Below are positions 16,054 through 61,815 of a DNA stretch of 64,000 nucleotides, piece by piece. Position 1 is the stretch's first letter; each line of letters starts with the position of its first letter. The translations under genes and the position numbers were made by a program. Origin of the DNA: Diphasiastrum complanatum (taxonomy: Eukaryota; Streptophyta; Lycopodiopsida; Lycopodiales; Lycopodiaceae); NCBI GenBank assembly GCA_029204225.1, contig CM055094.1, forward strand, positions 24,202,541-24,266,540, written 5' to 3'. Under the pieces are notes generated by a model, which saw only the letters and a list, made by a program, of their open reading frames with translations, was not told where the DNA came from and made no database searches.

Positions 16054-16132
<79 letters not shown>

Positions 16133-39685: not shown

Positions 39686-39900
39686 CGTCCGATCTGTTTC
39701 ACCTTTGCTCTCTTCCCTGGTTGAAAAACAGTATCGCACATTTCTACATCGCAAGAAAGTTGTATACAATATGACCCGCTCAGCCTGACTACTTCACAAC
39801 TTACACTCAGCCTCCTCCGTTGCTTTTTGGAGGGCTTCTCTTCCTAAGTCTCGCACCATTCCTCCCATCCCTCTCCAGTCCTGGATTGATCATGCGACCA
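39686..39900 (+). pseudogene. LINE ORF2 continued
   Basis: Reads LSSLVEKQYRTFLHRKKVVY, a stop, LHSASSVAFWRASLPKS and PIPLQSWIDHATT, matching copy A (SSAEKQLRSLLRKKKVAY, LHSASSATFWKIFLHK, PIPLQSWVDYATN). It ends where gypsy gag begins on the other strand. Confidence 0.85.
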
Positions 39901-43178: not shown

Positions 43179-43339
43179 CACATTTCGAGGAAGTGAGATT
43201 GTGCAGCCAGTGTTGTTGGTAGATGGCTACAATCTATGTGGGTTTTGGCCTAAGTTGAAAAAGCATTTTTCACGTGGCAACCTTGAATTGGCACGAAAAA
43301 AGCTTGTTGATGAGCTTGCCACTTTCAGTGCAATAAAGG
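43179..43339 (+). CDS. YacP-like NYN-domain protein, exon
   Basis: 161-base exon. The encoded piece has PVLLVDGYNLCGFWPKLKKH and LELARKKLVDELATFSAIKG, the start of the plant YacP/NYN (PIN-like ribonuclease) domain, in which the Asp of LLVDGYN is a predicted metal ligand. YacP-like proteins are linked to RNA turnover in chloroplasts and bacteria; here the role is inferred from family only. The exon starts after TTTCTCTCAG and ends at AAAGG|GTACAT with one base left over, which fits the exon at 62031 exactly. Earlier exons are not found to the left. An ATG at 43147 lies in the intron-like pyrimidine tract and is probably not the start. Confidence 0.8.
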
Positions 43340-44176
43340 GTACATTCTTTTCACAGATTCTTGTTTAGTATATGAACTACTTGTAATGAGAACTTTTGTT
43401 TTGGCATTGTTTCATTTCAATAATGCATTTTTTGATTTTTCTTCCTTGAGCTTTGACCTTATTAGGTGAAATGTTTCCCCCTCCTAAAAATTATTGTGAG
43501 ATTTTTAGAGGTTAATAATACTAGAAGGTATAGGAAGAATAGGTCAGATGATGGCATGTCTCTTTTCCTCTTATAGCTAACGTGCATTGAATCATAGTTA
43601 TTTTTTCAAATCTTGGAGTCTGAGGCAAAATGTTCCATCCTCTTTTAAATTTTTACTTTGCATGTTAGTTCATTTTTCTATGTAACTTGTTACAATCTTT
43701 GATCAAGCTGAAATGACATAGTACTTGTACACATATTTCCTATGACTAATTACTAATCGTTGATGTTGATCAGCCAATATCTATTGATTGATGTACCTTG
43801 ATTCCGATTAACCGTCTATCAAAAATTTATTTAGTTCGTCATGTTTGCTTTAGACCTTTCCTCAATCAGAGATTGGCATCAAGGTGCGATCTTGGTCTTG
43901 TTAAGGGTTGAGTTCGACAGGAGGAATTGCCTTCAATGAACAGGGATATGTGGCTGAAGGACCAAATGATCTCAGATAGACCTGTGTTATAAGGGTCTTA
44001 AGCTCATCAAAAGTCAAGTGTCTACTACATTAGATCAATCTTTCAAGATGCAACTACTTGACTTAGAGCTTATTTCTATAGATATTTCCTTTTTATTCTA
44101 CAAATGAAAAGCAAGTGAACCCCTTTGAAGCTGGCCACCTATGTATACCATTGCAGATAATAAGCTCATGAAAATG

Positions 44177-44180
<4 letters not shown>

Positions 44181-44226
<46 letters not shown>
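44181..44226. repeat. (GA)n microsatellite, tail of LINE fragment
   Basis: About 46 bases of GA. On its right it is fused straight to LINE ORF2 coding, with no 3' untranslated part. Confidence 0.95.
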
Positions 44227-44231
<5 letters not shown>

Positions 44232-44833
44232 ATCAAAGAGGCTCTCAACGTAAGCATCTCTCGAAGTAAAAGGCCGACACATCTGGGATCCTGATACTCC
44301 AAAAAGGTACTGAGGGTAAGGGGGGTGTCCCGATGCAAACAGCGATATCGACCACATATCTCATAGTATGAAGATAAAATGGAACTCATCTTCCATTACT
44401 CCCAATGTGCATACCTGGTAGACCCGATGCTCTCTCGAAATGCCTGAATATCTGTTTGTCTCGATAGCCAGCTGGTGTGAAGAGACTCGTAACTGTCCTA
44501 GCGCCATAAAAGGTAAGCTTGACCCTACCATGATCAGGCTGATCCCATACTATGTGGCAATATCTACGATACAGCTGCTGTCTGATATATGCATGAATCC
44601 CCTGTGGGAGATCCAGCATCGAGAAGCCCCACGACTGAAAAAAAGCAACCACATCACCGTACCATGAAAATCTAGCCTGCTGTCTAGCTATATCCTGGGA
44701 AGAAGTAAGCTTTGCTATCACGTATCTGTGAGTATCCATGGTCTCAAGTCAATGTAGAAAGGTAACAATCTGAAACAAAGGCTCTACCACCATGGGAACC
44801 CCAAAAGAATCTCATGAGGAACTGAAATATCCC
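44227..44833 (-). pseudogene. LINE ORF2 C-terminal fragment
   Basis: The minus strand reads HEILLGFPWW, RYVIAKLTSSQDIARQQARF, IHAYIRQQLYRRY and, after frame changes, YYEICGRYRCLHRDTPLTL, CVGLLLREMLTLRASL. These match the region after the RT in copy C (51.0-51.7 kb). It is cut at both ends: at 44833 by copy A, and at 44227 by the GA tract. It belongs to the C-like subfamily. Confidence 0.85.
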
Positions 44834-44837
44834 ATGC

Positions 44838-45898
44838 ACGATCGGCCTCAATAGCAAGCTGATGAGAGGAAATGCGCAACTGCCCAAGACGATAGCGCAG
44901 GCCATGTGATAGGGGCTGTATAGAAGGATTCAGAGAGAGGAAGTGTGTCTGGTAATAGCTCAGTCGAATACGGGAAGGTGGGAGGGAGCTCCAAGTCTGT
45001 TGCATATATCGACGGAATAAATAGCCTCGGATATATGAATGCGTACTACGAGGAAGATCCATGATAGAGATGCCCAGATGTGGTAAGAGATCAGACGCCT
45101 GCTGGTACCAGGATAGCTTGGCATGGGATTCAGCTAGGACACGTGAAGAAGTAACTGCAGCAACTATGTATCTATCCGGGTGAGATGCACGAATCTCCTG
45201 AATCCACTGAAGAAAAAGAATAAGGTGGAAAAAGCCCTCAAGAATTCGGAGGAGTAGCAAACTCAGCACATAGGATATCATGAGGGGTGGTAGTCTTGGC
45301 ACGTATCATGCGACCCAACATAGTGGCCTGAATGCGGGAAATGCTTGCCCAGTCGCAGAATGGGGATGTGCAAATGAGCCAGCGGGCAACCATCTCCACC
45401 TTCTTCACGAATGAGGTGCTCCAGATCATCAATATAAAGTGCAAAGAGCGGAGGGGATAGTGGACAGCCTTGCTTGACGCCAACAGTGCTACGGATGCGA
45501 AAAGACAAATCATTACCCAGCCGAATACGTGCTAGAACTCATACAGAGCAACCACTGCCGCGAGAATAGAGTCGGAAAAGCCAAGCTGACGTAGTCTGCT
45601 GATCAAAAGATGACGGGGAACAGTATCAAAGGCCTTAGAGAGATCAACGAAACAAGCAAATACCTTCTTGCCCATATGCTTTGCCTCCTCAATGATAGTA
45701 CGTAGAGTGAGGACATGATCAAGAGTGCTATAACCCCGACGGAAGCCAGCCTGGCCAGTCGCATATAATAGTCGAGAATCAGTCTCTGGAGAATAGTGGC
45801 GTACAACTTGGCGATGGTATGACCAATCATAATAGTGCGATAGTTGTGGACATTCATGGCATCGCCTGCTTTAAGAATGGGATGACGGAGATTGGTGG
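44838..45898 (-). pseudogene. LINE ORF2 RT and C-terminal part (copy A), catalytic core deleted
   Basis: Reads RHPILKAGDAMNVHNYRTIM (RT start), ATGQAG-like damage, then GVKQGCPLSPPLFALYIDDL near 45485. After IPIL the sequence jumps over the catalytic YADD segment to a thumb-region piece (HFPHSGHYVG, out of frame). It then goes on with FLQWIQEIRASHPDRYIV, WYQQASDLLPHLGISIMDLP and GLRYRLGQLRISSHQLAIEA. With motif C gone this copy has no active polymerase. Confidence 0.87.
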
Positions 45899-46141
45899 GA
45901 GATACTCCCGAATCTAGCGAACAGGGAGAGCTTAGAAGGTCAAGCAGAAATCGAAACCCTCTTGCAAGGTTAGAGATGAATCTAGCCCTTAAGAACCAAA
46001 AATCTTTGATGAAGCAAAGGAGCACAAGGAGTGGCGTGCAACTACGGAAACAGAAATGGAGGCCATATCGAAAAATAGGACGTGGAACTTGGTTGAGCTA
46101 CCTGAAGGTAAGATGCCTATCACTTGCAAATGGATTTATAA
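45899..46141 (+). pseudogene. copia RT N-terminal fragment inside LINE ORF2
   Basis: The + strand reads GELRRSSRNRNPLARL, then in another frame EPKIFDEAKEHKEWRATTET, AISKNRTWNLVELPEGKMPI and CKWIYK. These are the copia linker and RT start. It replaces about 25 LINE codons between LASLVLDRLI and RHPILKAGD. No LTR is attached. Confidence 0.85.
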
Positions 46142-47650
46142 GGCGGTCCAGGACAAGGGAGGCGAGTTTGGCAATTGGTTTGAGGAGCATGGCTGAAAGG
46201 AGGTCAATGTCAGACGTACGATTGTTCTTGAGTTTGCAGATGGTGGCTTCAACCATGTCAGGAGAAAAGAGGTCACAGTGGGTAGGACGAGAAGAAAGAG
46301 AGATGGAAGGGTGAGCAGTTGTATATAGGTTGGTTGCATAGTCGACCCAGGATTGAAGAGGGATGGGTGCAATGGATAGGGGCTTATGAAGAAAGATCTT
46401 CCAAAAAGTAGCCGAGGAAGCAGAGTGGAGGGAGCGAAGGAGGTAGGAGGAACGGGAAGAAAAGTAGGCCACTTTCTTTTTGCGGAGAAGGGAACGAAGC
46501 TGCTTTTCTGCGGAAGAAGACAGTGTAGAATTGGAGAATTTGAGGAACTCGACATATTTCTGGAAGAAAGAACAGTCGTTGTCATACCATTTATTATGGG
46601 TACGATGATGAGAAGAGAAGCGGCGAGGGGGTGCAATGGCGTGAGCGGCAGTAGTCAGGGCGTGTGTTAAAAAGGAGGCTTGGGTAGTGACATCAGAGGA
46701 GGAAGGAAAGTGGTCCAGAAGACGAGAGACGTGGGCAACATAGGCCTGGGATTGATGAGGAGGTATACGATAGCGGGTGGGTCGAACAAAGAGGGAAGGT
46801 GGAGGAGAAGGCGGACTTGGCGCTGGGGAGAAGGAGAGGTAGAGCAGAGAGTGATCAGCGAGGACGGGGGTAGCGATGGTGAAGGATGCCAGGCGGGGCA
46901 ATAAAGCAGGATATGCAATGAAATAGTCCACTATGCTGTGACCGCCACCAAATGGGTGGCAAGTATATGCAGAGGAGGATGGCCATTGAAGAAGACCATT
47001 GAGGATAATGAGACCGTGGGCTTGAGCCAACCTCAGAAGCTGTTCCCCAAAAAGAGTAACTGTAGCAGATGAGTCCTGAGAATAACGGGCATAAGAGGTA
47101 TCCAACGGATGAAGAGAGAGTGTGTCAGCATAGAACTCAGTCTGGCGATTGGTTGTGCGTGCGTTAAAGTCCCCTGCAAGCAATATGTAACCCTGTAGAG
47201 AGAGTCTAGCAACGCCGTCATAAAGGGCCTGAAAAGGATCACCTCCCAAATCCATAAACACTGAAGTGTGGGGAGCAAAGTAACACACTGCAACAAACAA
47301 GTCCTGGTCTAGCCCCAAGAAGATGCAGTAATCTGAAACCACAAGTAACGGCCATAAGTATCCTGAGACACCAACCGGATAGAAGGAGTACCTGTACAAA
47401 CATGCAACTCCACCAGAGGCCCGAAGTATCCTGCCCTGTAGCATAGGTCGTGGAGCAGAAATCCACTGAAAACCAGAAATGTGCGGAAGAGGGTGTGTGG
47501 AAGACTCATATGTCTCTGCAAAAAGTAGAAAATCAGCCGAACATAGATAGGTGTCAAGATCAGCCGCTGTAGAAGAGGTAGAGAGGCTGCCGCAAGTCCA
47601 AAAACTGAATGTGACGCTAGCCGGGGCTATCGGGCTGCTCCCATGCCCGA
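46142..47650 (-). pseudogene. LINE ORF2 endonuclease (copy A)
   Basis: APE-type endonuclease that nicks target DNA for priming. The frame 47444-46098 is open for 448 codons. Motifs: LLFAETYES (catalytic Glu, near 47520, just upstream), YILLAGDFNARTTN, NGLLQWPSSSAYTC, GGGHSIVDYF and VLADHSLLYLSF, then the linker HNKWYDNDCS, LRSLLRKKKVAYFSS and the pre-RT region (VDYATNLYTTAHPSISLS, NRTSDIDLLSA). At 46141 ORF2 is interrupted by copia sequence. This is the best preserved endonuclease of the window. Confidence 0.9.
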
Positions 47651-47663
47651 GTACCCCAACTTC

Positions 47664-48655
47664 CTATCGACGCTTGGAGAAAAAGCAAGGGTTGCCATTT
47701 GTAAATACCACCCGCTGTTGTTTTGTCCTTGCCTCCTGAATAATAGTTTTACGCTGTAACCATTGGCAGTGAGTAAGGTCATCATCTATGTAAATCTGAG
47801 AGCGTCGGAGAGTACGACGCGCACGAAGAACTGTCTGCCGGTCGTCCATAGTTTTGAATTTGACAAATAATACCTTCGGATCATGCTGGAGGCGCCAAGC
47901 ATACTGGATAGCTGGAACTGAGAGCCCCATGCGTGAAGTAAACAAAGAGGTAACCTGGTCCAGTGCTGCGCCCTCAGTAGGAAGACCCCGGAATCTTAAG
48001 TTAAGCTTTTTGTCATCCCGACGTTGTTGTTCTGCCAAGACGCCTTGTACCGTGGTGTCTAAGGAGGGTGCTACAGAAGACGAAGAGGTGGTAGATGATC
48101 TCAGGGTAGAAGCCCATGATTTGGTCTCACGTACTTCTTGCTCGAGAGTAGGTACTTTCTGTACATGTTCCACCGTCTCATGAAGCCGCTGTTCAAGAAC
48201 GGGAATCCGGGCAGTGCTCTCAACAATGTCATGTATCTGGCGCTCAAGTAGGGGAAGCTTAGTCATGGATGCCTTAGTATCCTCAACAGCACGGGAGATA
48301 TTAGGGATGATGTCCCTCTGCAAAGCACTAAGCACAGCACAAAGAGAAGCAATTTCAGCCTGTTGAGCGTCAATCGTGGCAGTCTTAGTAAGCAAATCCG
48401 CACGAAGTTCATTGAGTTGTGAAAGAAAAGCGGCAAATTGCTTAGAAATGTACTCATTCAAGGAGGAGATGTTCTCAGGAGTGGTGTGCCGCGTCTAGGT
48501 GTGACATGTGTCTCCCATAGCAGCTGAGGATGAAGCAGCAACTTGTGGCGGTGGAGCGCTGACAGAATCGGTAGAAATGGTGGATGCAATTTCCAAGTAC
48601 GAAGACGTTTGCGAGAGCCTACAGACATAAACTTCTTAGCACGCTTTGTGTGCAA
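47664..48655 (-). pseudogene. LINE ORF1 (copy A): coiled coil plus RRM-like domain
   Basis: Start ATG 48655 (MHTKRAKKFMSVGSRKRLRT); a frameshift near 48560 and a stop near 48497; then one frame of 265 codons from 48461. In order: a long helical region with heptad-like Leu/Ile spacing (LNELRADLLTKTATIDAQQ, LPLLERQIHDIVE, VLEQRLHETVEHV), an RRM-like part (KKLNLRFRGLPTEG, KVLFVKFKTMDDRQTVLRA) and a C-terminal part (IYIDDDLTHCQW, QEARTKQQRVVFTNG). This is the L1 ORF1p (Transposase_22-like) layout: an RNA-binding chaperone of the RNP. No CCHC knuckle, the usual mark of many plant LINE ORF1s, is seen. Confidence 0.82.
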
Positions 48656-48708
48656 GACAAAGCCTGGAGGAAGGCGAAGCGAAGTCGTAGGATGATTTGC
48701 AGGAGATA

Positions 48709-48712
<4 letters not shown>

Positions 48713-48786
<74 letters not shown>
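48713..48786. repeat. (GA)n tract joining LINE B tail to LINE A 5' end
   Basis: About 74 bases of GA. On the right is the conserved 3' end of LINE B, on the left the 5' untranslated region of LINE A. An imperfect GAAAGAAAAGAAAGAAAG extension follows to about 48803. Confidence 0.96.
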
Positions 48787-48791
<5 letters not shown>

Positions 48792-48840
48792 AAAGAAAGA
48801 AAGCTTTATTAACGTGCACCCGTAGGTGCATAAGACCAAA
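48787..48840 (-). promoter_or_regulatory. Conserved LINE 3' end (copy B): hairpin and TTAATAAAG box
   Basis: On the + strand the order is GA tract, CTTTATTAACG, then the hairpin TGCACC-CGTA-GGTGCA (48815-48830), then TAAGACC. The same order with different stem bases occurs at 50595, 55747, 61268 and 61589. Confidence 0.8.
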
Positions 48841-50574
48841 AAGAAGATTAAACTGGCTACAATGAAAGTAGAACAAAGCAGAAGTGAAATAAGCCCACAA
48901 CCCTGGCTAGGTATAACAGAAGAACTACAGAAAAAGTACCAATGCTCACAACCCGGGCCAACTGGAGAATAAGTACATATTAGCAAAAGTACGTGTGAAG
49001 TGTCCGCTGAGTGGAGTGTACAATGGGCCCTGATGGAGGCAAGTGGCGACTACATCTGTGCTTTTTCCCCGATGGCACAGGGATAGGAATCTCATCATCG
49101 GAGTCATCAACATGTGCTCAAGTCCGAAAGAAGCCAGTGAGAAGCAGCTGCTGGGAGTCTAACCCCAGGTGATCTAGTACAGGCAGATGAGACTGACGGA
49201 GAGTAAGCATAAAGTGCCAAGCAACGAGCATCAAGATAGGAGACAAAACTACGAAGTGTTTGCGGGCCATCACGAAAGAGACAATAATGCCTCCCCCGTA
49301 TCTCATAATACAACGGACATCTAAGGAGGAAATGGGCTTCATCTTCCACCTCCTGCAACGAGCACAAGCGACATAGACGGGGGATATCCCATGCACGACC
49401 GGCCTGCGCAACTGTCCAAGACGATAGCGCAGGCTGTGTGATAGGGGCTATGAGAGATAGAGCGACAACAATGGCAAACTAGAAGGATCCAGAGAGAGGA
49501 AGTGTGTCTGGTACTAGCTCAGTCGAATGCGGGAAGGTAGGAGGGAGCTCCAAGTCTGCTGCATATATCGATGGAATAAATAGCCTCGGATATATGAATG
49601 CGTACTACGAGGAAGATCCATGATAGAGATGCCCAGATGTTGTAAGAGATCAGACGCCTGTTGGTGCCAGGAGAGCTTGGCATGGAAATCAACTAGGACA
49701 TGTGAAGAAGTAACCGCAACAACTATGTATTTATCCGGGTGAGATGCACAAATCTCCTGAATCCGCTGAAAAAAACGAATAAGGCGGAAAAAGCCCTATT
49801 GGAGGAGTAGCAAACTCAACACATAGGATATCATGAGGGGTGGAAGTCTTGGCACGTATCATGCGACCCAACATAGTGGCCTTAATGCGGGAAATGTCTA
49901 CCTAGTCCCGGAGAGAAGGTCTTGGCAATCAGATCTTGGAGGCATCATCACTGCTGGAACCACCCGTGTGTGAAACAACTGGCATCTAGTAGCGGGAAAT
50001 ATGATTCATTGTACAACCACGCTCGAACTGGACCAATGGTAAAAGACCGGAGGAAATGTGCACAAATGCAGCCTTATGCTTTGCTTCCTCAATGATATTA
50101 CGTAGGGTGAGGACATGATCAAGATTGCCATAACCCCGGTGCAATCTAGCCTGGCCAGTCGCATACAATAGTCTCTCATCAGCTTCTGCTGTAACGAAGT
50201 TCTGGAGAATAGTGGCGGACAACTTGGCCATGGTATGACCAATCATAATAGTGCGATAGTTGTGGATATTCATGGCATCGCCTGCTTTAAGGATGGGGTG
50301 AAGGAGATTGGTGGCCCAAGGTATGGGGAAACCATCAACGACAAAGCGGTTGAAACAGCGGGCCAGGAAAGGGGAGGCAAGTTTGGCAACTGGGTTGCTC
50401 GGCTGAGTGAATGTCAGACGTACGATTGTTCTTGAGTTTGCAGATGGTGGCTTCAACCATGTCAGGACGAGTAGAAAGAGAGATGGAAGGGTGAGCACTT
50501 GTATATAGATTGGTTGCATGGTCAACCCGGGATTGAAGAGTGATGGGTGCAATGGGTAGGGGCTTATGAAGAGA
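48787..50574 (-). mobile_element. LINE copy B, 5'-truncated and internally deleted
   Basis: 3' end with hairpin (48815-48830) and untranslated region to about 49080; ORF2 C-terminal part (EVEDEAHFLLRCPLYYEIRG and flanks, 49110-49430; 49440-49880); RT start (50030-50574: LHPILKAGDAMNIHNYRTIM, ATILQNFVTAEADERLLY). A deletion fuses RIIEEAKHK-type sequence to AAFVHISSGLLP, removing RT motifs A to D. The 5' end lies in ORF2 at LHKPLPIAPI, directly beside the GA tract of copy C. Confidence 0.88.
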
Positions 50575-50594
50575 GAGAGAGAGAATAGAATAGA
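50575..50594. repeat. Short (GA)n tract joining LINE C tail to LINE B
   Basis: About 16 bases of GA then AATAGAATAGAATA, between the truncated 5' end of copy B and the 3' end of copy C. Confidence 0.9.
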
Positions 50595-50640
50595 ATATAT
50601 TAATGTCTTTCGGTTGCCCTTGGGCACATAAGACAAAGAA
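50595..50640 (-). promoter_or_regulatory. Conserved LINE 3' end (copy C)
   Basis: Order on + strand: GA tract, ATATTAATGTC, hairpin TGCC-CTTG-GGCA (50615-50626), ACATAAGAC. Compare copies B, E, F and G. Confidence 0.75.
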
Positions 50641-50897
50641 AAAGTACATCAGAAAGGAGCGTTGTCCATGTTGGACTTATTTCTATTTGCTAAAGCTAAA
50701 AACAGAATAAACTGGAAATAAAACCAAAGCTTAACCTCCAGCTATGGTGAGGGTACAAAAGCAGTAGCTTAACCACCAGCTACGCGGAGGAGTACAACTC
50801 ACTAACCGAAAGAGAAAAACTGTGTGATTTGGTATGAGGCACACGGTGGCCTCTGATGACGAACTCGGGACGGTCAAGGAAGACGCTGGAGCTTCCG

Positions 50898-53153
50898 TCA
50901 GCGAGCTGGAATGTCAATCTCATTATCAAAAGTATCCTCCCTAACTCTTTTCTGAAAGAAAAGTGTAGTATGTGGTTGGCTGTGGTCAACATCCTGATCA
51001 CGCGACATAAGTGAGGATCTCAAGGAGAACAACTCTCGCAAAAGTAAACCAACACATCTCGCATCGGGATAGGCAAAGAAGGAACCAAGCATGAGTGGAG
51101 TGCCCCGATAAAGACAGTGGTATCTGCCTCTGATCTCATAGTAAGCTGGACATAAGAAAATAAATTGAAACTCATCCTCAACCTCCTGTAATGTACAGCA
51201 CCGACAGATCCGTAATGGTCGTGGCAGGTCTGCGTATCTGCCAGTCTCAATAGTGAGCTGATGAGAAGAGACCCGCAGCTGACCGATGCGGTAGCGCAGG
51301 CCAAGAGACGACGGCTGAGAGAGATAACTCGATCTAACGAGAAGCCCTGAAGCATCTAAGTGAAGAAAGTGAATGCGGTAGAACTGAAGCTTAACCCGTG
51401 AAGGATCAAGGTGAGACCAAACAGTATGTATGTATGCTCTGTAGGTCCGTCTACGAATGAATGCATGAGTCCCATTGGGGAGGTCAGACATAGATAATCC
51501 CGAACTATGTAGAAAGTCCGAAGCATACTGAAACCATGAAGACTTAGCCCGCAGCCCAGCCAAAGTGCGAGAGGATGTAAAAGCCGCTACCACGTATTTG
51601 GAGGAATCAAGCTCTGAGATTCTGTGAATGAATGTGATGATCCCGAAAATAGCCTCGACAAGTAGTGGAGGAGAAGCAAACTCCGCCAGAATAATCTCAT
51701 GGGGAATGGACTGCTTGGCCCGAATCATCCAGCTAAGCATGTGAATCTGTAAACGCGAGATATCACTCCAAGTATCTCTAGATAAGCCTAGGCACCATGT
51801 CTCTGCTGAGTATAGTGCCACTGGAGAAACAATCAAAGAAAAGAGGCGACATCGTGTGTCTGGATCATGCACATAATAAGTAGAGGAAAACCTCTCCATC
51901 TGAACAAGAGCAGAGCGCCCCTTGCAGAGCCTAGCCAATGCAGGTGGTCGAAACGAAAGCAATGGGCCAGAAAAGAGAACACCCAGGTATGTGTAAGACG
52001 CTACTATTTCTAGAGGCTGTCCATCAAAATAGAACATAGTATCTCTCATATGCTGCTTGTTGGTGTTAAACACCATAACCTTAGTCTTTCCAATGTTCAC
52101 CATTAGCCCCCATATCTGACAGAAAGTATACAAAGCATCCAGATGTCGCTGAAGTCTTGTAGCTGAACTAGATAATAAAACCACATCATCCGCATAAAGA
52201 AGGATGGGGATAACAATATCTGCTAAAGGACAGCCATCCCCCCCTTCTTCCCGAATAATACGCTTAAGGTCGTCAATGTATAAAGCAAAAAGGGTGGGTG
52301 ATGAAGGACATCCCTGCTTTACTCCGACCGTACTATGAACATATGAAGACCATCCATCTCCATCACGAAATCTGGCCAAAACTCTCTCAAATAATGTGAT
52401 GATAGCAGCAATGATCTCCTGTGAGAAACCAAGGGATGTCAGATGCTGGAGCAGCAAGTATCGCGGAACTGAATCAAATGCTTTGCGGAAGTCCACAAAA
52501 CAGCAATAGACTCTCTGTTTCCTGAACTTCGCGGCCTCAATGATACATCCCAGTATGAATATTTGGTCTGCTGTGGAGTAGCCAGCTCTGAAACCTGCCT
52601 GTCCCATAGCATATAACTCCTCTGTCTTTGCATGAGCGCTGATGATAGACTGCATAACAGAACCATAAAGCTTAGTCATAGTGTGGCTGATCATAATAGT
52701 ACGATAGTTTTCTACATTTAGAGGATCACCAGCCTTAAGTATAGGGTGCAAAAGGTCAGTACACCACGGTGTGGGAAGGCCAAAAATAACAGATTGGTAA
52801 AAAACGTAGGAGATGTATGGAGCAACAATATGGGCGATAGGTTTTAGAAACTCCATACTTAGAGAGTCAACATCAATGGCTTTATGGTTTTGGCCATTTT
52901 TGATGGCGTTTTCAATCATGGACGGAGTGAAAAGGGTGAATTCTGAAGGACGGGGTGAGAGAGAGATGGAAGGAGAGTCAACTGTATAAAGTTTTGCAGC
53001 ATAGTCAATCCACGATTCAATGGCAATAGGAGCTGGCCTACATGAGTTTTTAGAGAACATCTTCCAAAAGAAGGTGGAAGAAGAAGAGTCCAAAGAATCG
53101 ATGAGTTTTTGTGCGAGAGACTGAAAGTACATGGTCTTCTTCTGCAAAGTCAT
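50898..53153 (-). CDS. LINE ORF2 reverse transcriptase (copy C), open
   Basis: A 751-codon open frame, the C-terminal two thirds of ORF2. RT motifs in order: TDLLHPILKAGDPLNVENYR, MGQAGFRAGYSTADQ, motif A CCFVDFRKAFDSVPR, motif B VGVKQGCPSSPTLFALYIDD, motif C LLYADDVVLLS (catalytic YADD intact) and motif D NIGKTKVMVFN. Then come the thumb region and a C-terminal zinc-knuckle segment CRCCTLQEVEDE...FLCPAYYEIRG, in which the usual His (EVEDEAHFL in other copies) is Gln here. It copies LINE RNA at the nicked target. The ATG at 53153 is internal: the endonuclease lies upstream in broken frames, so this is not the natural start. Confidence 0.92.
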   Translation of the reverse strand: MTLQKKTMYFQSLAQKLIDSLDSSSSTFFWKMFSKNSCRPAPIAIESWIDYAAKLYTVDSPSISLSPRPSEFTLFTPSMIENAIKNGQNHKAIDVDSLSMEFLKPIAHIVAPYISYVFYQSVIFGLPTPWCTDLLHPILKAGDPLNVENYRTIMISHTMTKLYGSVMQSIISAHAKTEELYAMGQAGFRAGYSTADQIFILGCIIEAAKFRKQRVYCCFVDFRKAFDSVPRYLLLQHLTSLGFSQEIIAAIITLFERVLARFRDGDGWSSYVHSTVGVKQGCPSSPTLFALYIDDLKRIIREEGGDGCPLADIVIPILLYADDVVLLSSSATRLQRHLDALYTFCQIWGLMVNIGKTKVMVFNTNKQHMRDTMFYFDGQPLEIVASYTYLGVLFSGPLLSFRPPALARLCKGRSALVQMERFSSTYYVHDPDTRCRLFSLIVSPVALYSAETWCLGLSRDTWSDISRLQIHMLSWMIRAKQSIPHEIILAEFASPPLLVEAIFGIITFIHRISELDSSKYVVAAFTSSRTLAGLRAKSSWFQYASDFLHSSGLSMSDLPNGTHAFIRRRTYRAYIHTVWSHLDPSRVKLQFYRIHFLHLDASGLLVRSSYLSQPSSLGLRYRIGQLRVSSHQLTIETGRYADLPRPLRICRCCTLQEVEDEFQFIFLCPAYYEIRGRYHCLYRGTPLMLGSFFAYPDARCVGLLLRELFSLRSSLMSRDQDVDHSQPHTTLFFQKRVREDTFDNEIDIPAR

Positions 53154-54310
53154 CCTACGGTATTCTCTTTGTTTAGATGCTAAGTTGTCGGGAGAATGAT
53201 TTTGAGCATAAACAACCTGCTTATGTAGAGAGAGGCACTCATCATCATATCATCTATTGTAAGTGCGTTTATAAGATGAGAAAGCTTTGGAGGGATAAGC
53301 AGTATTGGCTGAGCAAAGAAGCGACTGAGATAAAAAGGCGGCTTGCTGGTCCACTGAAGATGAGAAGGGGAAATCGTCGAGCATTGTGGCCAGAGAGGAA
53401 GTGTAAGTAAGAAGACCAATTGGAGAGAAAGAAGGACATGGTGGCGTGTGGAATGTGGAGTCGTAACAGTACCAAGAGTAGCATAGCCGAGAGACAGGAG
53501 CAATAGAGAGTGATCAGAGATGGTAGGGTGCATAATATGAAAAGTATGAAGAAACGGAATTAAAGCTGGTGAGCCAATGAAGTAGTCAACAACGCTGTGT
53601 CCACGACCGTGCGGATGGCAGGTAAAAACTGATGATGATGGCCATCGAGAAAGGCCATTCAGAATGGCTAAAGAGTGAGCTTCTGCAAGTCCAATCAACT
53701 GTTCTCCAAAGTGTGTAGCTGGGGTATCAGCATCCTGAGAGGTCCTGTCCAAACCCACATCCAAAACCTGAATATGTAGGAAATCACTATCTGCATGAAA
53801 CTCTGTTTGCTGGGTGTTGGTGCGAGCGTTAAAATCGCCTGCTAATAAATAAGGCCTTGATGTGCAAAGCTGGCTATATCATCTGAAAGAGCCTGGAAGG
53901 GGTCACTACCATAATCTACAAAAGCTACAAAAGCTGATGTCTGAGGTGCAAAATAACAAACTGCTATAAAGAGATCTTGAGGTAACCCTAAGAAGTGACC
54001 ATAAAACAGTAACCAAATAAATCGTGCAAATGGATCACTTTTGAGTAGCTTAAAATGAGTACGAAAAACCTCCAGATCCATGCGTGGTTTTTCCTCTTAG
54101 GAAAGGCCTGTACGTTGAATACCATGAGTAATTCTGAATAACTGGAAGAGGTCGATATAGTGATTCATGAGTCTCCGCTAAGAGCAAAATATCACATTTG
54201 TAAAAAGGAGTGAAAATCCTCTGTCGAAGAAGATGAAAGCACATCGTTACAATTCCAGAAACCAATCCGCAATGGCTGAGGGGATCTCGGGTTGTTGTGC
54301 CCGGGATCCC
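53154..54310 (-). pseudogene. LINE ORF2 endonuclease (copy C), broken
   Basis: Spread over several frames: KCDILLLAETHESLY near 54200, LPQDLFIAVCYFAPQTS near 53970, LAGDFNARTNTQQTEF near 53850-53810, NGLSRWPSSSVFTCHPHGRG near 53650-53600 and TISDHSLLLLSL near 53510. All endonuclease landmarks are there in order but at least three frame changes separate them. Confidence 0.85.
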
Positions 54311-54317
54311 CGATTCC

Positions 54318-55202
54318 CTATTGAGAAATCTTATCGTAGAATTTAGGCTTGCCTTCAATAAAGGCCACTCTTTGATTCCTAGCATTGGCCTCTTGAATGA
54401 CCACTTTCCTCGCTTGCCATTGTGTGTGTTAGGTCGTCATCCATAAAAAGAAAAGATCCTTTGAGCTTAGCTCGAAGGCGTAAAGCAGAATTACGTTGTT
54501 CAATGGAGCGAAACTTTATGAATAGGACCTTATCATCAAATTTGCTCTGCCAAGCAGTGTCAAATCCCTCCAGATTATGTGCAAGTTTAGACACAAGAAG
54601 GTCTTTCGCCTCATCAAGTGCCTTGTTTCCATTAGGGATACCCCTAACTCGTATATTAAGAGCCTTCTTGGCTCTTCACTAACGAAGGCTGAACTTGGTT
54701 AGAGGAATTACCAGCTTGCTTAAGAACTGAAGCCCAAGTACGAGTGTCTTCCACTTCTTTTGCCAAAGATGAGATTTTATTTTCCACATCTTGCTGTGAA
54801 TGAGTGTCCTGTATCCCTTTCTCTTTCATCCTGTCAATGGTGCTTTGTAAATCTTTAGTTTGTAGACTGACCCTGGTAAGTTCTCCATGAAGTGTTTGAC
54901 TTTGTAAATGCAATTTTCCGATAAATTGGAACACTTCTTTGAATTGGTGTTGTAGGTAGCTTGAGAGATTCAAAGTCAGATAAGTTGCTAGGTTGTAATT
55001 GTTCAGCATGGATATGGTAAGCAAGGCAGGAATCTGTATGAGATAGTTGCAATGGAGAATGAGGTGGTGAGAAGGACAGACCGGCAAACGAAAGGGAAGA
55101 GCCAGCGATGGCTGACTGGCCATCAAAATGGCCATCAGAAGCCTGGTCAAGAAAAGCATGGGAAGAGTGGGGTGAAGCTCCATCAGATTTGGTAGAGGCC
55201 AT
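54318..55202 (-). pseudogene. LINE ORF1 (copy C)
   Basis: Start ATG 55202 (MASTKSDGASPHSSHAFLD), TAG at 54318-54320, with at least two frameshifts. A Ser/Pro-rich N-terminal part is followed by a helical segment (FQFIGKLHLQSQTLHGELTR, DLQSTIDRMKEKGIQDTH, ISSLAKEVEDTRTWASVLK), then the RRM-like part (DDKVLFIKFRSIEQRNSALR) and a C-terminal part (FLFMDDDLTHT, EGKPKFYDKISQ). Same layout as ORF1 of copy A. Confidence 0.8.
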
Positions 55203-55702
55203 ATTCAGACCTTCCTCTTGCTGTCAAATTTGCTCAGAGAATGAAGATCCAGCGCAATTTTGGGCTTGCTTTGTTGAATCTCCTCTATCCGTGAGGCTCC
55301 CAAGCACTCAAAAATGTAGGTAATGGTCTCTTCAGATGATACTCCACTGAAAACTGAGTGACATTCGCACTTCTCAGCTGCAGCAGTAGCGATGGAATGC
55401 CTCAAATCGAGGATAGAGAGTAACTTGTGAGTCAACACGTGTTCAGAGGTCACGTTGTTAGGTAGGATGTATCTTCAGTGATCGCGATCTGCTAAGAGGG
55501 CCGATTTCAGACAGCTGAACGGCAATCAAGCCCCCCTTTGAAGTAATGTTACAAACTGTACTTTGATGGCAATTCTATGTGACAATGTAATGGAAGGTGG
55601 AGAGGAAAAAGTACGAAGAATCGAGGGGGGCAGCAGCAGCAGCCATCGCTGGGAGGAGGCAACCATCACCATGATCATGGGAGGGAGGCCATCACCATGA
55701 CC

Positions 55703-55708
<6 letters not shown>

Positions 55709-55746
<38 letters not shown>
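55709..55746. repeat. (GA)n tract joining LINE E tail to LINE C 5' end
   Basis: About 38 bases of GA; the 5' untranslated region of copy C, with a near-duplicated CCATCACCATGA block, ends directly against it. Confidence 0.95.
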
Positions 55747-55747
<1 letters not shown>

Positions 55748-55935
55748 AAGCATTTACATAGTTCCTCTTGCTTAAGCAAGACCAAACCATTGGAAACCTT
55801 TATTCATTAGCCAAGAAGGTAAAGTATACCTGAGAAGTAGATTACAGTACAGTAAAGCACCATAAAGCAAGACTTATTTCAAGACATCAAGCTGGTACCT
55901 GCCACCAACTCACAACAGAAACCACGCAAGTTAGT
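55747..55935 (-). mobile_element. LINE copy E, 3' end only
   Basis: Contains the 3' box and hairpin TCTTGC-TTAA-GCAAGA (55766-55781) about 20 bases from the GA tract, followed by GACCAAACC. No ORF2 coding is seen, so it is a strongly 5'-truncated copy. The right border is uncertain. Confidence 0.65.
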
Positions 55936-57928
55936 ATGTGAGGAAGATAGGTGTCAACGCTGAATGTCAGTTGTTATCCATGTACAAAATAAGCATTGCT
56001 ACTTAAGAACTTAGTTAGAATAAAAAATTCTTAGTCCCATTCACTTGTGAATTTTAGCGATAGGCTAAGCTGTCATATTACTATATCAGGGCGAAAGCCA
56101 TGCTGATCAATGTAACAGGCGTTAGTCCATATCAATCATTAATCTTTAGTATATATCAAATCAATGATAGGACACTTGCAACATGTGCAAATCGTTTTCA
56201 CAAAAAGATTTTAGGTTGAGCAAGGACACACGTACAACGGTATTAGGGCAAATCCATGCCATACTAACCCGTGGACCCATGAATGAGTTGTGTAATGGTG
56301 TCAAAACCCCTTGAGCATATCCATGCTTTCCAAGGGTGTTCAAGCTCGACTACTAGTCTAATTACTAGTGTTAACTTGAAAGGGCAAGTGCAAAATTTAC
56401 AAAGTTATTTAAGCTGCCGTGTTTTAGAACAAGGGAATAAAAACCTTTGGCTTGTATAGTCTCAATCGATATGTTAGGGAAAATCCATGTCATTCTAACA
56501 TTAGAGACTATAACGACCCTTGCGCAAATCCATGCATTCCAAGAGTAGTTTAAGCCAAAAACGAGTACTATTACATGTCTTGGGTTAGTTCGATAATAGA
56601 TTGAAACTCATCGTGTAAGCAATAAGAAAGCTACGTTAATGGCAAAGCAAACTTATGGAGTTGAGGAGAATCTTGTTATTATAATGTCTTTAATTTTTTC
56701 GAGGTGGTGATACTCTTTGCTAGCAATGGTAAAGCTCATACTTGAATAGTGGTGGAAGCGTAATCCTGTGAAGATGCCATGATGTATTTGCTACTATCGA
56801 ATTACCGCTACTATCGATTCTTCATGCATTACCACAACAATACTTTATCGGTGAGTTAATTAACATAAAAGCGACAATTGAGTTGTCTGCCAAACGTCAT
56901 CAATCACAGCCAATACTATCTATCAACAACGATTTCTTCATTTGATCTATAGGAGCATAAGGTAAAGGTGTAGTACCCGTGATTGGTATATGCTTCAATG
57001 CTAATGAAAGATAAGAGTAAAGTCTCAGTAGAGTAGACTGCAAGAACCTTTCATAAAAGAGTTACATTCCATTTAATGTGTTTAAAGCTATCATTCAGTT
57101 AAGTGATGGTATCAAAGAAAGGATAAAGATGTCAGCAATTGAATGGCCGATCTAATAAACATAGGGTGGGTATAAACCACTTCACGTAACCGTACATAAC
57201 AGTAGCAATGATTAGTATGAGCAGGATTAAAAATGACTGTCAGCGTCATTTTATTACAACAAAAGAGCTTTATAAACTGGAATGGAATGTATAACTTCAA
57301 AGCGTCCGTGGTGAGACATTAAGCTATCACTATGAAGCGATAAATATGCTTGTTCCCACATTGAGTTATTGTGACCATCGCTGGTTTTCCAGCGCACTAC
57401 CACGTTTGTAGTTGTGAGCAACTCAATATACAATATGTGCATGAAGCCATACATCAAGCAACATGCTTACTTCGCTGATTATCAGCGCTGCCTTTGCTGT
57501 TTTACAGCGCACTTTTACAACTAAATGAAAACGATAGGTAAATCGTGTTCATACCTGCAAGAGCTCTTGAAGGAAGCGACAAATCATGTGGAAGATGGGT
57601 GCTGTCCAACATTCACAAACACTTTGAAAGCATTGGTAGGAAGTAGAAGAGGAGAAGAGGTGGAGAAATCACAAAGAATGGCAGTGTATCAATAGCTAAA
57701 TCGTGAGCTTACCGCGAAACTTCGTGGAAGGAACCAAACCTTCCCTTGTGTATGAAGCAAATTATAATAACCATTGGATGACACAAGGGTAAGTCGTAAC
57801 CGTTCATTGAAGAGGCTTTATTTAAAAAAAATTCCCGCTAAAAAGTTTAGACCATTTAGGGGTATGCCTTTTGAAGGTATATTGCCAACTTAAAGCAAGA
57901 GGGGGTGATATGAAATTAGATACTACCC
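55936..57928. other. Intron DNA, no gene; weak direct repeats
   Basis: Two related blocks lie at about 56236-56340 and 56469-56560, sharing TTAGGGCAAATCCATG-like and CAAATCCATGCATTCCAAG-like segments. Near 57380 and 57475 are short hairpins around CCAGCGCACT and CAGCGC. Nothing coding recognised. Confidence 0.5.

Positions 57929-57970
<42 letters not shown>
57929..57970. repeat. (GA)n tract at the tail of LINE D
   Basis: GA repeat with one GC; on the right it is fused to the last codons of LINE ORF2 with no 3' untranslated region. Confidence 0.95.
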
Positions 57971-57977
<7 letters not shown>

Positions 57978-57984
57978 GGCCGAC

Positions 57985-60180
57985 TACATCTAGGCTTTTT
58001 CCGCGGGTGCACAGCGATAGGAATCTCATCATCGGAGTCATCAGCATGTGCTCGAGTTCGAAAGAAGCCAGTGAGAAGCAGCTGCTGGGAGTCTAACCCC
58101 AGGTGATCTGGTACAGGCAGATGAGACTGACGGAGAGTAAGCATCTCACGAACAAGAAGTCCCAAGCAACGAGCATTAGGATAGGAGACAAAACTGCGAA
58201 GTGTATGCGGGCCATCGTGAAAGAGACAATAATACCTCCCCCATATCTCATAATACAACGGACATCTGAGTAGGAAATGGGCTTCATCTTCACCTCTTGC
58301 AATAAGCACAAGCGACATAGACGACGCTCCTGGGGGATATCCCATGCATGACCGGCCTCAATAGCAAGCTGATGAGAGGAAATGAGCAACTGTCCAAGAC
58401 GATAGCGCAGGTCGTGTAATAGGGGCTGTGAGAGATAGAGCGGCAACAATGGCAAACCAGAAGGATCCAGAGAGAGGAAGTGTGTCTAGTAACAGCTCAG
58501 TCGAATGCGGGAAGGTGGGAGGGAGCTCCAAGTCTGCTGCATATATCGATGGAATAAATAGCCTCAGATATATGAATGCGTACTACGAGGAAGATCCATG
58601 ATAGAGATGCCCAGATGTTGTAAGAGATCAGACGCATGTTGGTACCAAGATAGCTTGGCATGGGAATAAGCTGGACACGTGAAGAAGTAACCGCAACAAC
58701 TATGTATCTATCTGAGTGAGATGCACGAATCTCCTGAATCCGCTGAAGAAAAAGAATAAGGCGGAAAAAGCCCTCAAGGATGTTTGGAGGAGTAGCAAAC
58801 TCAGCACATAGGATATCATGAGGGGTGGTAGTCTTGGCACGTATCATGCGACCCAACATAGTGGGCTGAATGTGGGAAATGCCTGCCCAGTCCCAAAGAG
58901 AAAGCCCTGGCAACCAAATCTCGGAGGCATACATCAGTGTTGGAACCACCCGTGTGTGAAACAACTGGCATCTACTAGCGGGATGAAAAATATGATTCAT
59001 TGTACAACCACGCTCGAATTGGACCAATGCTCAAAGACCAGAGGAAATGTGCGCAAATGCAGCCTGGCGCAAACCAAGAAGGGGCTCAGTAAACAAGACT
59101 CCCAAGTAAGTATAAGAGGCAACAATGTCAACTTCCTGGCCGTCATAGAAGAATTGATAAATGTGAAGGCTTTGTCGATTGGTGTTGAAAATCATGATCT
59201 TCATCTTTTTTAAGTTAACAGAGAGATGCCAAGCAACACAAAACCGATGTAAGACCTGTAAGTGACACTGCAACCCTTCTGGTGTGGGAGAAACCTGAAC
59301 AATGTCATCATTAAAAAGCAGAATGGGGATGAGCAAATGAGCCAACGGGCAACCTTCTTCACCTTCTTCACGAATGAGGCGCTTAGGATTATCAATATAA
59401 AGTGCAAACAATGGAGGGGACATTGGACAGCCTTGCTTGACACCAACAATGCTACGGATGGGAGAAGACAAATCAGTATCCAGCCGAATACGTGCTAGAA
59501 CTCTTTCATACAGAGCAACCACTGCCGCGAGAATAGAGTCGGAAAAGCCAAGCTAACGTAGTCCATCAAACGATGACGGGGAACAGTATCAAAGGCCTTA
59601 GAGAGCAACAAAACAAGCAAATACCTTCTTTCCCATATGCTTTGCCTCCTCAATGATAGTACGTAGAGTGAGGACATGATCAAGAGTGCTATAACCATAG
59701 CGGAAGCCAGCCTGGCCAGTCGCATACAATAGTCGAGAATCAGCCTTTGCCGTAACGAAGTTCTGGAGAATAGTGGCGTACAACTTGGCCATGGTATGAC
59801 CAATCATAATAGTGCGATAGTTGTGGACATTCATGGCATCGTCTGCTTTAAGAATGGGATGAAGGAGATTGGTGGCCCAAGGTATGGGGAAACCATCAAC
59901 AACAGAGCGGTTGAAACATCGAGCTAGGAAAGGGGAGGCGAGTCTGGCAATTAGTTTGAGGAGCTCGGCTGAAAGGAGGTCAATGTCAGAGGTGCGATTG
60001 TTCTTGAGTTTGTAGATGGTGGCTTCAACCATGTCAGGAGAAAAGAGGTCACAGTGTGTAGGACGAGAAGAAAGAAAGATGGAAGGGTGAGCAGTTGTAT
60101 ATAGGTTGGTTGCATAGTCGACCCAGGATTGAAGAGGGATGGGTGCAATGGATAGGGGCTTATGAAGAAAGATCTTCCAA
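57985..60180 (-). pseudogene. LINE ORF2 RT and C-terminal part (copy D)
   Basis: Readable in order: LQSWVDYATNLYTTAHPSIF, NRTSDIDLLSAELLKLIARL, NLLHPILKADDAMNVHNYRT, ATGQAGFRYGYSTLDHV, KAFDTVPRHRLMDYVSLAF, VGVKQGCPMSPPLFALYIDN, then LLFNDDIVQVS where YADD is expected, SVNLKKMKIMIFNTNRQS, and the C-terminal knuckle CRLC...EDEAHFLLRCPLYYEIWG split by a frameshift. It ends DSDDEIPIAVHPRKKPRCSR just before the GA tract. The changed motif C and the frameshifts make it inactive. Confidence 0.9.
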
Positions 60181-60184
60181 TCTA

Positions 60185-60774
60185 AAGAGGGTGCTACAGA
60201 AGACGAACAGGTGGTAGATGATCTCAGGATAGAATGATTTGGTCTCACATACTTCTTGCTCGAGAGTAGGTACTTTCTGTACATGTTCCACCGTCTCATG
60301 AAGCCGCTGTTGAAGAACGGGAATCTGGACAGTGCACTCAACAATGTCATGTATCTGGCACTCAAGTAGGGGAAGCTTACTCATGGATGCCTTAGTATCC
60401 TCAATAGCACGGGAGATATTAGGGATGATGTCCCTCTGCAAAGCACTAAGCGCAGCACGAAGAGAAGCAATTTCAGTTTGTTGAGCGTCAATCGTGGCAG
60501 TCTTAGTAAGCAAATCCGCACGAAGTTCATTGAGTTGTGAAAGAAAAGCGGCAAATTGCTTAGAAATGTACTCATTCAACGAGGAGATGTTCTCGGGAGT
60601 GTTGTGCCGTGTGTAGATGTGGCATGTGTCTCCCATAGCAACTGAGGACGAAGCAGCGACCTGTGGCAGTGGAGGGCTGACAGAATCGGTAGGCATGGTG
60701 GATGCACTTTCCAAAGTACGAAGACGTTTGCGAGAGCCTGTAGACATAAACTTCTTAGCACGCTTTGTGCGCAA
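60185..60774 (-). pseudogene. LINE ORF1 N-terminal half (copy D)
   Basis: Open from ATG 60774 (MRTKRAKKFMSTGSRKRLRT) for about 190 codons: MGDTCHIYTRHNTPENISSL, FLSQLNELRADLLTKTATID, NISRAIEDTKASMSKLPLLE, VLQQRLHETVEHVQKVPTLE. It is the intact form of the helical region damaged in copy A. A frame change near 60230 and the deletion at 60180 end it before the RRM-like part. Confidence 0.88.
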
Positions 60775-61212
60775 GACAAAGCCTGGAGGAAGGCGAAGCG
60801 AAGCCGTAGGATGATTTGCAGGAGATAGATGAGAGAGGAAGCAAAACCCTAATCAAGCAGTTTTAAGAAAATGAGCGTAACTTTGTCATACGAAGTCCGA
60901 TTGACCCGAAAATTGATTCAGATCGAAGGTAAGACAGAGCACTACGAAGTTGTCAAACTGTACTTGCATTACGGTACGGATCAGTACGGACTGTACGGAT
61001 TTTACAGACGGAGAAAATTTTGAGATCAAGAAAATCCAATTTTCAAAACTCAAATTGCTGAGGATCTATTGCAAAAGGATAGCAGCAATGAAATCTTGAG
61101 AAACAAGCTTAGAATAGCTAAAAGTGATGCAAGAAAGTGTCATGCACAAAAAAGGTAGATCTAGCCACAAAGAAAGCTAGAAAGAAGTGAGAGTTGCATG
61201 GAGATGGAAACG

Positions 61213-61213
<1 letters not shown>

Positions 61214-61267
<54 letters not shown>
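61214..61267. repeat. (GA)n tract joining LINE F tail to LINE D 5' end
   Basis: About 54 bases of GA between the 5' end of D and the 3' end of F. Confidence 0.96.
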
Positions 61268-61272
<5 letters not shown>

Positions 61273-61542
61273 GTAATGTCTTAGAGGTACCCGAGGGTAC
61301 AAAAGATAGAGTAAATGTACATCTCAAGTGTGTATGACACTCTAGAAACGTGTAATGATCCGATAAGTAGCCTCGACCTGTAATGGAGTAACTAAAAACT
61401 TTGCAAGTATAGTCTGGTGAAAAATAGAAGGTTTCGCTCGAATCATACGTGAAAGCATAGTAATTTGCAGGCGAGATATATCAGCTCACTCAAAGGAGGT
61501 GAGACTTGTACACCAAGTCATGCTGCATACAAGACGACATTG

Positions 61543-61545
<3 letters not shown>
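61268..61545 (-). mobile_element. LINE copy F, 3' end plus ORF2 fragment
   Basis: Hairpin GTACC-CGAG-GGTAC at 61287-61300, 20 bases from the GA tract, then GTAATGTC-box neighbours. From about 61330 the minus strand gives pieces of ORF2 (DISRLQITMLSRMIRAK, in other frames FHQTILAKF), matching copy C after the RT. The zinc-knuckle region between them is deleted. The 5' truncation abuts the next GA tract. Confidence 0.8.

Positions 61546-61588
<43 letters not shown>
61546..61588. repeat. (GA)n tract joining LINE G tail to LINE F
   Basis: About 43 bases of GA. Confidence 0.96.
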
Positions 61589-61591
<3 letters not shown>

Positions 61592-61815
61592 TATTAATGT
61601 CTTTTCCATGCCATAAGGCATAAAAGACCAAAAGGAGTACATGTCCAATATGTGAAAACCATGGGAGCGTATATAAACGTCTCCTAGAAAAAACTATGCA
61701 TAAAAAGATGAGTAATAGAGCTGTAAATTACAAACTGCCAATTGTCCATAAATGGGAGCAAAATAGCTGCCAGGAGTAGAGTAATATCATCTAGCGCTGC
61801 TGCTGAAACACCTTA
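61589..61815 (-). mobile_element. LINE copy G, 3' end only
   Basis: Box CTTTATTAATGTC and hairpin ATGCC-ATAA-GGCAT (61608-61621), followed by AAAAGACC. About 200 bases of 3' untranslated sequence without coding. The border on the right is approximate. Confidence 0.7.

Follow-up and report, generated by a model that had tools for sequence, protein, structure and literature searches.

What does a simple (TC)n repeat do when it stands between the members of a cluster of long interspersed nuclear elements (LINEs)? The question is raised by a 64,000-nucleotide stretch of the 1.745 Gb genome of Diphasiastrum complanatum (C3:24202541-24266540, hereafter the window), in which the minus strand carries, from 44.18 to 61.65 kb, a head-to-tail array of a single orientation whose members are separated by (TC)n. 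In element order the array reads tail G, F, E, D, C, B, A and (TC)24, with (TC)n between neighbours; the letters are our own and differ from those of an earlier preliminary description of this DNA. LINE-protein matches are found in A, B, C, E and F, and several members end in a short hairpin followed by a conserved box and (TC)n. The field has no settled answer to how a LINE protein selects its RNA and the place where it inserts. We favor, with a probability of about 0.65, a reading in which (TC)n both terminates the element and is its preferred landing site, the element protein docking on the tail, cutting at a TC/GA target and priming the new copy from the repeat.

Architecture of the tail

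The preliminary description reported five LINE copies ending in a hairpin with a four-base loop, a box and (TC)n. All five stems are present on the minus strand close to where they had been placed, each with (TC)n after it. Four of them (at 61628, 61307, 50634, and 48836, counted from the first base of GTCTT/ATCTT) have a common ungapped layout: GTCTT or ATCTT, seven bases ending in the 5′ arm, a tetraloop beginning at base 13 from GTCTT, the 3′ arm, AAGAC (in all of them but B), a ATTAATAAAG-like box, and (TC)n. They form 5, 5, 4, and 6 Watson-Crick pairs, respectively, and the probability of at least four such pairs at a fixed offset is 0.0056 over all window positions. The fifth stem (55782, TCTTGC/GCAAGA) is in a different register, lacks the ATTAATAAAG box, has no LINE-protein match upstream and belongs to another repeat family. 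The shared layout thus holds for four tails, while LINE coding in the window accompanies only three of the five (48.8, 50.6, and 61.3 kb), tail G being the other one without it. In its general form the tail is about 55 nt long, with GTCTT/AAGAC outer arms, an inner stem of 4-6 bp, a tetraloop, the ATTAATAAAG box, and a pyrimidine end made of CTTT repeats and/or (TC)n.

Folding each tail singly, as had been suggested, gives a mixed picture. Compared with shuffles, the folding energy reaches p < 0.05 for only 61628, 50634, and a further tail at 16233, with values of 0.059 for 48836, 0.13 for 61307, 0.17 for 55782, and 0.20 for another additional tail at 16045.

Conservation of the tail across the genome

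The source genome contains 5,411 occurrences of the box AAAGACATTAATAAA against 15 of its reversed control, and the pattern GTCTTATG-N10..24-box gives 124 genomic matches against 0 for the reversed control. A (TC)4 follows the box within 6 bases in 928 forward matches, against 2,656 forward boxes; the 2,320 reverse matches are inflated by multiple matches per site. By contrast, A8 within 6 bases of the box is found 0 times in the whole genome, which rules out poly(A) elements.

The hairpin was assessed in samples chosen regardless of it. The 100 rows listed for box plus (TC)4 correspond to 60 sites, 46 of which have at least 5 Watson-Crick pairs with a loop of 3-5 bases (in 40 of them the distance is identical), compared with 3.2% of shuffles and 0/60 upstream control windows; the sites comprise 32 distinct pre-box strings and hence are not 60 independent cases. 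The first 32 consecutive box sites on contig C1, picked regardless of hairpin or tail, display a stem of at least 5 Watson-Crick pairs in 24 cases, a TC run of at least 10 within 40 bases in 24, and a tail whose first 20 bases are at least 75% pyrimidine in all 32; an A run of 6 is seen once, beyond the pyrimidine tail. Chance hairpins are ruled out by these shuffles and control windows together with the offset test in the window.

Among 37 loci drawn from the 124 GTCTTATG-box matches irrespective of their tails, a TC run of at least 10 is present in 25 and an A run of 6 within 40 bases in none. Poly(A) ends, which the preliminary description had named as refuting its reading, are seen neither here nor in the count of A8 after the box. 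The (TTG)n or (GTT)n ends of the plant RTE type are likewise not found among the 37 tails. ORF2 (open reading frame 2) homology stops 275-354 bases before the GCACC tail in L032, L038, L039, L043, and L049. Many tails are compound, of the form AATAAAG-(CTTT)n-(TC)n, a hint that the CTTT repeats derive from copying of the RNA and the TC from the target.

The hairpin is therefore a real, positioned and conserved feature genome-wide, and together with the box and the pyrimidine or (TC)n end it marks these elements across the genome. Relatives outside the source genome were found neither in viral contigs (searched by pattern and protein) nor in other genome contigs (searched by protein).

A hairpin next to an AATAAA-like box could also serve the formation or stability of the RNA 3′ end instead of recognition by the reverse transcriptase. 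AATAAA does lie within the box, just before the end, and the loops vary, unlike the loop-specific recognition described for ZfL2 in the available text of PMC4176376. We consider this quite unlikely, given that A8 is nowhere found within 6 bases of a box site and that a 3′ stem-loop is common in LINEs of the stringent type and in short interspersed nuclear elements (SINEs), as far as the accessible parts of the literature go (PMC3747384, PMC4176376).

TC repeats as probable landing sites

Truncated copies mark landing sites and, together with the stems that vary among families, make both tail recognition and repeat-primed insertion testable. The copies A, B, and F, whose 5′ ends are defined by homology, start within 12 bases of (TC)n in 3/3 cases, A at the point where its relative E holds a native CTCTCTC run. 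C and E are also preceded by (TC)n, and this TC border, not homology, sets their 5′ limits. Across the genome, the ATATGCC tail of the largest family is preceded within 30 bases by (TC)5 at 20 sites, compared with 0 sites for (GA)5 and 0 for (TA)5. The strand bias of TC fits (GA)n DNA acting as the primer on (UC)n RNA, a step that we infer.

In 20 loci of seven kb, whose 5′ ends were counted by eye, 50 tail-oriented TC tracts are found versus 1 GA tract. Fourteen of the loci are of the GCACC type, nine of them clearly short-truncated; L044 and L045 are one site, which leaves eight. The GCACC loci L032, L038, L039, L043, and L049 were omitted for remote or unclear 5′ ends. The TGCC/CGCC-type loci L033, L037, L041, and L042, with no TC at the listed point, were omitted because the families cease aligning there. 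Five of the eight short GCACC copies (L031, L034, L044, L046, and L050) have TC at most 6 bases from their 5′ border. L044 stands between (TC)8 and (TC)16(AC)n, that is, inside a TC/AC compound repeat. In L098, a tail of about 45 bases is directly flanked by two TC repeats, and its neighbour L099 has the same rare variant, so that local duplication is as likely an origin of these flanks.

Several observations weigh against (TC)n as both end and landing site. The 20 TC sites reduce to 15 distinct strings, the duplicates including two C17 sites 175 bases apart; three of the eight short GCACC copies (L036, L047, and L048) have no 5′ TC; and from G upstream to the window end there is no TC tract of at least 5 units. 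The automatic 5′-end finder flagged TC in only 6/97 loci, being noisy in that the 3′ untranslated regions of the families cannot be aligned and many rows reach the edge of the fetched piece. At the other end of the element, 12/37 tails are of the CTTT type, are short, or, in L019 and L024, lack a pyrimidine-rich sequence, and copies A (ending at 44228) and E (ending at about 57979) finish in (TC)n without a hairpin, which qualifies the preliminary claim of hairpin-ended LINE copies, otherwise borne out by conservation genome-wide. Targeting of TC is a preference at most, far from strict unless the finder misses most ends.

These data also bear on other origins of the repeat. In the model of the preliminary description, the hairpin starts copying and (TC)n is merely a tail substituting for poly(A), with insertion otherwise unselective. 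The genome-wide conservation of hairpin and tail would suit such a model, as would tail G without an upstream TC tract of at least 5 units in the window and the 3/8 short GCACC copies without 5′ TC. Against it stand the 20 sites with same-strand TC before truncated tails, compared with none for GA or TA, and the one-orientation array with 3/3 homology-defined 5′ ends at TC, and we regard it as rather unlikely. A microsatellite does stand in the place of poly(A), with no A8 after the box; that account is incomplete, (TC)n being a favored insertion site as well.

The opposite proposal, in which (TC)n is purely derived from the target, has the elements inserting into existing TC repeats with an RNA that ends at AATAAAG or CTTT repeats. 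It draws on the many tails in which AATAAAG-CTTTCTTTC precedes any TC and on L044 within its compound repeat, and is contradicted by L036, L047, and L048, which have 3′ TC yet no 5′ TC. Overall it appears unlikely.

The array might instead have arisen in a single event of template jumping from RNA to RNA, or through unequal exchange or local duplication with TC repeats as the natural points of exchange; its uniform orientation would fit. The rare tail variant common to L098 and L099, 189 bases apart, is in line with this, and the near-identity of the two C17 sites indicates that local duplication does occur. However, window neighbours are strongly diverged (C and E at 48% amino acid identity over amino acids 30-562, A and E at 89-96% DNA identity) and are truncated at different points, and L031, L034, L044, and L046 have 5′ TC without a neighbour's tail in the preceding 110 bases. 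We hold this origin to be distinctly improbable. Tandem duplication in particular was rejected for the window array, whose neighbours are too diverged, and may still apply to pairs such as L098/L099.

Possible compensatory change in the stem

The preliminary description interpreted the differing stems as compensatory change. Five families have fully paired arms (ATGCC/GGCAT, GTGCC/GGCAT, GTGCC/GGCAC, GTACC/GGTAC, and GCACC/GGTGC), all pairing with a tetraloop at one shared offset; the ATGCC/GGCAT family has 1,716 genomic matches to a pattern that itself fixes the arms. Between families, both bases change in three of the five inner pairs, and G-U forms are seen at each. In the outer arms GTCTT/AAGAC the sequence itself is conserved, without two-sided change. 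The loops are variable (TTTT, TTAT, CACG, CAAG, TTTG, and CTCG), so that a conserved loop of the ZfL2 kind is not observed.

Swapping the arms of 68 distinct combinations gives a mean of 158 Watson-Crick pairs (standard deviation 6.9) and a maximum of 186 in 20,000 tries, below the 193/340 observed (p 5e-5). For the five family stems, only 4 of 120 arm orders are fully paired. In the window, pairing of arms with their own partners exceeds that of swapped arms (p 0.017 for five tails, 0.042 for four), and the covariation score is reached by 17/500 shuffles with five tails and by 20/500 with seven rows.

Other results speak against compensatory change. When G-U pairs are included, the arm-swap excess shrinks (231 observed, mean 218.5, maximum 237). 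A tree-aware covariation test, run with our own script on the idea of R-scape and not with R-scape itself, returns no significant pair, the best inner pair having an E-value of 3.7 over 39 columns and about 5 over 22 columns. This pair ranks 2/741 and 2/231 among column pairs, and both top ranks lie off the stem. Tails of other length or register were dropped from the 39-column test (11/60 and 22/100), while the 22-column test comprises 114 distinct strings from 128 tails, with the strings of the arm-fixed ATGCC/GGCAT pattern left out. Along the tree, single changes disrupt the five inner pairs in 17 instances and preserve them in 16, which is the balance that the preliminary description had itself named as telling against selection on the stem. 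Intact tails are found in 9/12 multi-copy and 17/35 single-copy cases (p 0.10). Most copies are presumably dead and decaying. The tree-aware null is not beaten because few families carry too few independent changes. From the comparison of sequences, compensatory change in the stem seems likely, a case that is suggestive and unproven: the pairing of family stems and the Watson-Crick arm-swap excess support it, and the tree-aware covariation does not.

Members of the array and other features of the window

The array members A, B, C, E, and F are non-LTR (long terminal repeat) retrotransposons, i.e. LINEs, with ORF1, an apurinic/apyrimidinic (AP)-type endonuclease and a reverse transcriptase. The endonuclease lies upstream of the reverse transcriptase domain, as in LINEs. 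It is recognised in A (Exo_endo_phos, E 3.2e-7, above the Pfam cut-off), and in C the match to Exo_endo_phos_2 has 26.2 bits, just under the Pfam cut-off of 27.4. In the PDB, the reverse transcriptase comes closest to R2 (77.2 bits), followed by L1 (67.7 bits).

All members lie on the minus strand. Tail G (61589-61652), of the ATGCC/GGCAT family, has outer arms GTCTTTT/AAAAGAC, the inner hairpin ATGCC-TTAT-GGCAT, and the box ATTAATAAAG, and no LINE coding is seen upstream of it within the window. A (TC)n spacer (61546-61588) separates it from F (61269-61545), a truncated LINE fragment with the region of ORF2 amino acids 479-539 at 61533-61351 and a GTACC/GGTAC hairpin tail. Beyond (TC)27 (61215-61268) follows E (57979-61214), an internally deleted LINE copy comprising fragments of ORF1 and ORF2, which terminates at the ORF2 end without a hairpin, with (TC)n at its 3′ side (57931-57978). 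D (55746-57930) is a separate high-copy TC-tailed repeat with the palindromic hairpin TCTTGCTTAAGCAAGA and no LINE-protein match. After (TC)20 (55705-55745) comes C (50586-55704), the most complete LINE copy (ORF1 region, endonuclease, and reverse transcriptase), with the tail GTGCC-CAAG-GGCAA from 50634; its ORF2 part (50898-53249) contains the reverse transcriptase domain (RVT_1, E 9.2e-32). A (TC)7 spacer (50570-50584), preceded by (TATTC)3, leads to the 5′-truncated copy B (48786-50569), whose tail TGCACC-TACG-GGTGCA from 48836 is without the AAAGAC outer arm. The B-A spacer (TC)n (48703-48787) is followed by A (44228-48702), which has ORF1 (48494-47664) and ORF2 and terminates within ORF2 without a hairpin, and (TC)24 (44180-44227) forms the 3′ end of the array.

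Relative to A, copy E is without about 1.65 kb between ORF1 and ORF2 (at 60180-60181 of the minus strand), through either a deletion or a spliced RNA template.

Two further tails are found on the minus strand outside the array. Tail X (16195-16257, the tail at 16233) keeps the box and has a broken inner stem followed by (AG)n, with an E-value of 0.054 in a covariance model trained on five tails. On the element strand, the repeat downstream of tail X (16165-16195) is (AG)n, not (TC)n. Tail Y (15998-16069, the tail at 16045), itself one of the training tails, has a GTACC-TTTT-GGTAT stem and a short (TC) end. Just downstream of it, on the same strand, 15703-15885 gives a weak ORF1-like match of 33% identity, a possible further head-to-tail pair.

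On the plus strand, 36645-39905 is a diverged LINE copy whose 5′ part (36899-37217) is inverted versus the remainder; tandem repeats of 31 bp occur close to the two breakpoints, within the ORF1 region, and the copy resembles a 5′ inversion. An exon piece of a gene with a YacP-like NYN domain lies at 43207-43341 (plus strand), and the antisense LINE array, which starts about 0.8 kb downstream of it, may lie in its intron. Copia- and Gypsy-type frames, judged by eye, are also present in the window. Searches of the window gave no Rfam match at the gathering score and no tRNA.

A second TC-tailed repeat family

The fifth stem of the preliminary description, at 55.78 kb, belongs to D. The segment 55746-55985 has 39 other scored relatives with 89-92% identity (from 3,330 first-look candidates). 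Ten of the 12 relatives that were fetched have an unbroken palindrome TCTTGCTTAAGCAAGA, and in 10 the sequence continues into TC at the equivalent end. The palindrome lies near the 3′ end of a repeat of 2.2 kb in the window and of about 5.4 kb in L143. L143 begins directly behind a TC tail that belongs to a different LINE copy, in the way that D begins after the TC of E. L143 has no match to the proteins of this LINE, and its longest frame (266 residues) has no Pfam match above the cut-off; LINE coding was not found in the 55.78 kb element, in a search that covered this LINE's proteins and not reverse transcriptases unlike its own. Its tail resembles the LINE tails in shape only, a hairpin that differs in sequence being followed by a short spacer and TC. 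The family may be moved by the same machinery.

A model for repeat-primed insertion

Starting from the parts of the tail and their co-occurrence genome-wide, the absence of A8 after the box, the pairing of stems at the level of families, and the same-strand TC at many 5′ ends, we infer docking, the nick position, priming, and a requirement for the hairpin. The element protein would dock on the tail, through its structure and the flanking box, and its endonuclease would nick a TC/GA repeat in the GA strand. The (GA)n 3′ end released in this way could then anneal to the pyrimidine end of the RNA, and reverse transcription would begin at the annealed (GA)n end. A new copy that carries or sits in (TC)n would offer a landing site for the next one, giving rise to head-to-tail arrays of the same orientation.

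A broader reading is conceivable and, in our view, doubtful. In it, a lineage of land-plant LINEs distinct from the L1 and RTE lineages described so far would employ a single simple repeat to end its RNA, to match the primer, and to land on, its tails breeding further insertions; the same machinery would also move the 55.78 kb family, so that recognition would depend on structure and position, not on sequence.

Comparison with known systems

Stem-loop tails, microsatellite targeting, and nested clusters are each known, and their combination is not among the literature matches listed. These matches include no plant LINE with a TC tail or a microsatellite target.

Kibi and Koshi are LINEs that target microsatellites, and we know of no TC tail in Zepp, a LINE with clustered copies. 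The fish LINE Togen inserts in (TG)n (PMC4640811), and the elements described here similarly appear to insert inside a simple repeat. Contrary to Togen, as described in the available text, their preference is not strict, and their endonuclease is of the AP type instead of the restriction-like type of Togen's group. According to the accessible part of PMC13295347, site-specific members among AP-type LINEs occur only in the Tx1 and R1 clades. Zepp of Chlorella and Coccomyxa forms clusters of nested copies, one per chromosome, in the portion of PMC3446292 available; the clustering of nested copies is similar here, whereas the copies are spread over many contigs.

With respect to the tail, UnaL2, ZfL2-1, and ZfL2-2 (fish, L2 clade) have a 3′-terminal stem-loop followed by short repeats, as found here, and in ZfL2 the stem-loop is recognised by the ORF2 protein (PMC4176376). 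Compared with the ZfL2 elements as presented there, the loop varies here, the flanks GTCTTATG and AAAGACATTAATAAA are conserved, and the end is (TC)n or CTTT, all of this being read from DNA, and the host is a plant instead of a fish. The 'monocot 1a' L1 LINEs of maize and sorghum reported by Ohshima also combine a plant LINE with a conserved 3′ hairpin, and in their case compensatory stem changes and SINEs sharing the hairpin are described (PMC3747384). In the text available, CGAG is a conserved flank of their hairpin and the loop contains UCU, unlike the motif, the loop, and the (TC)n or CTTT end seen here.

Across 23 plant genomes, LINEs comprise seven L1 lineages and one RTE lineage, the L1 ends being (A)n and the RTE ends (GTT)n or (TTG)n, in the available parts of PMC9033089 and PMC3747384. 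The present elements resemble these lineages in coding for endonuclease and reverse transcriptase and in their frequent 5′ truncation, and differ in that neither an (A)n nor a (GTT)n/(TTG)n tail was found here. With thousands of copies from several related families in one genome, in which the stem varies and the position, box, and tail type are kept, they add a tail type that is absent from the plant reviews as far as their accessible text extends (PMC9033089, PMC3747384).

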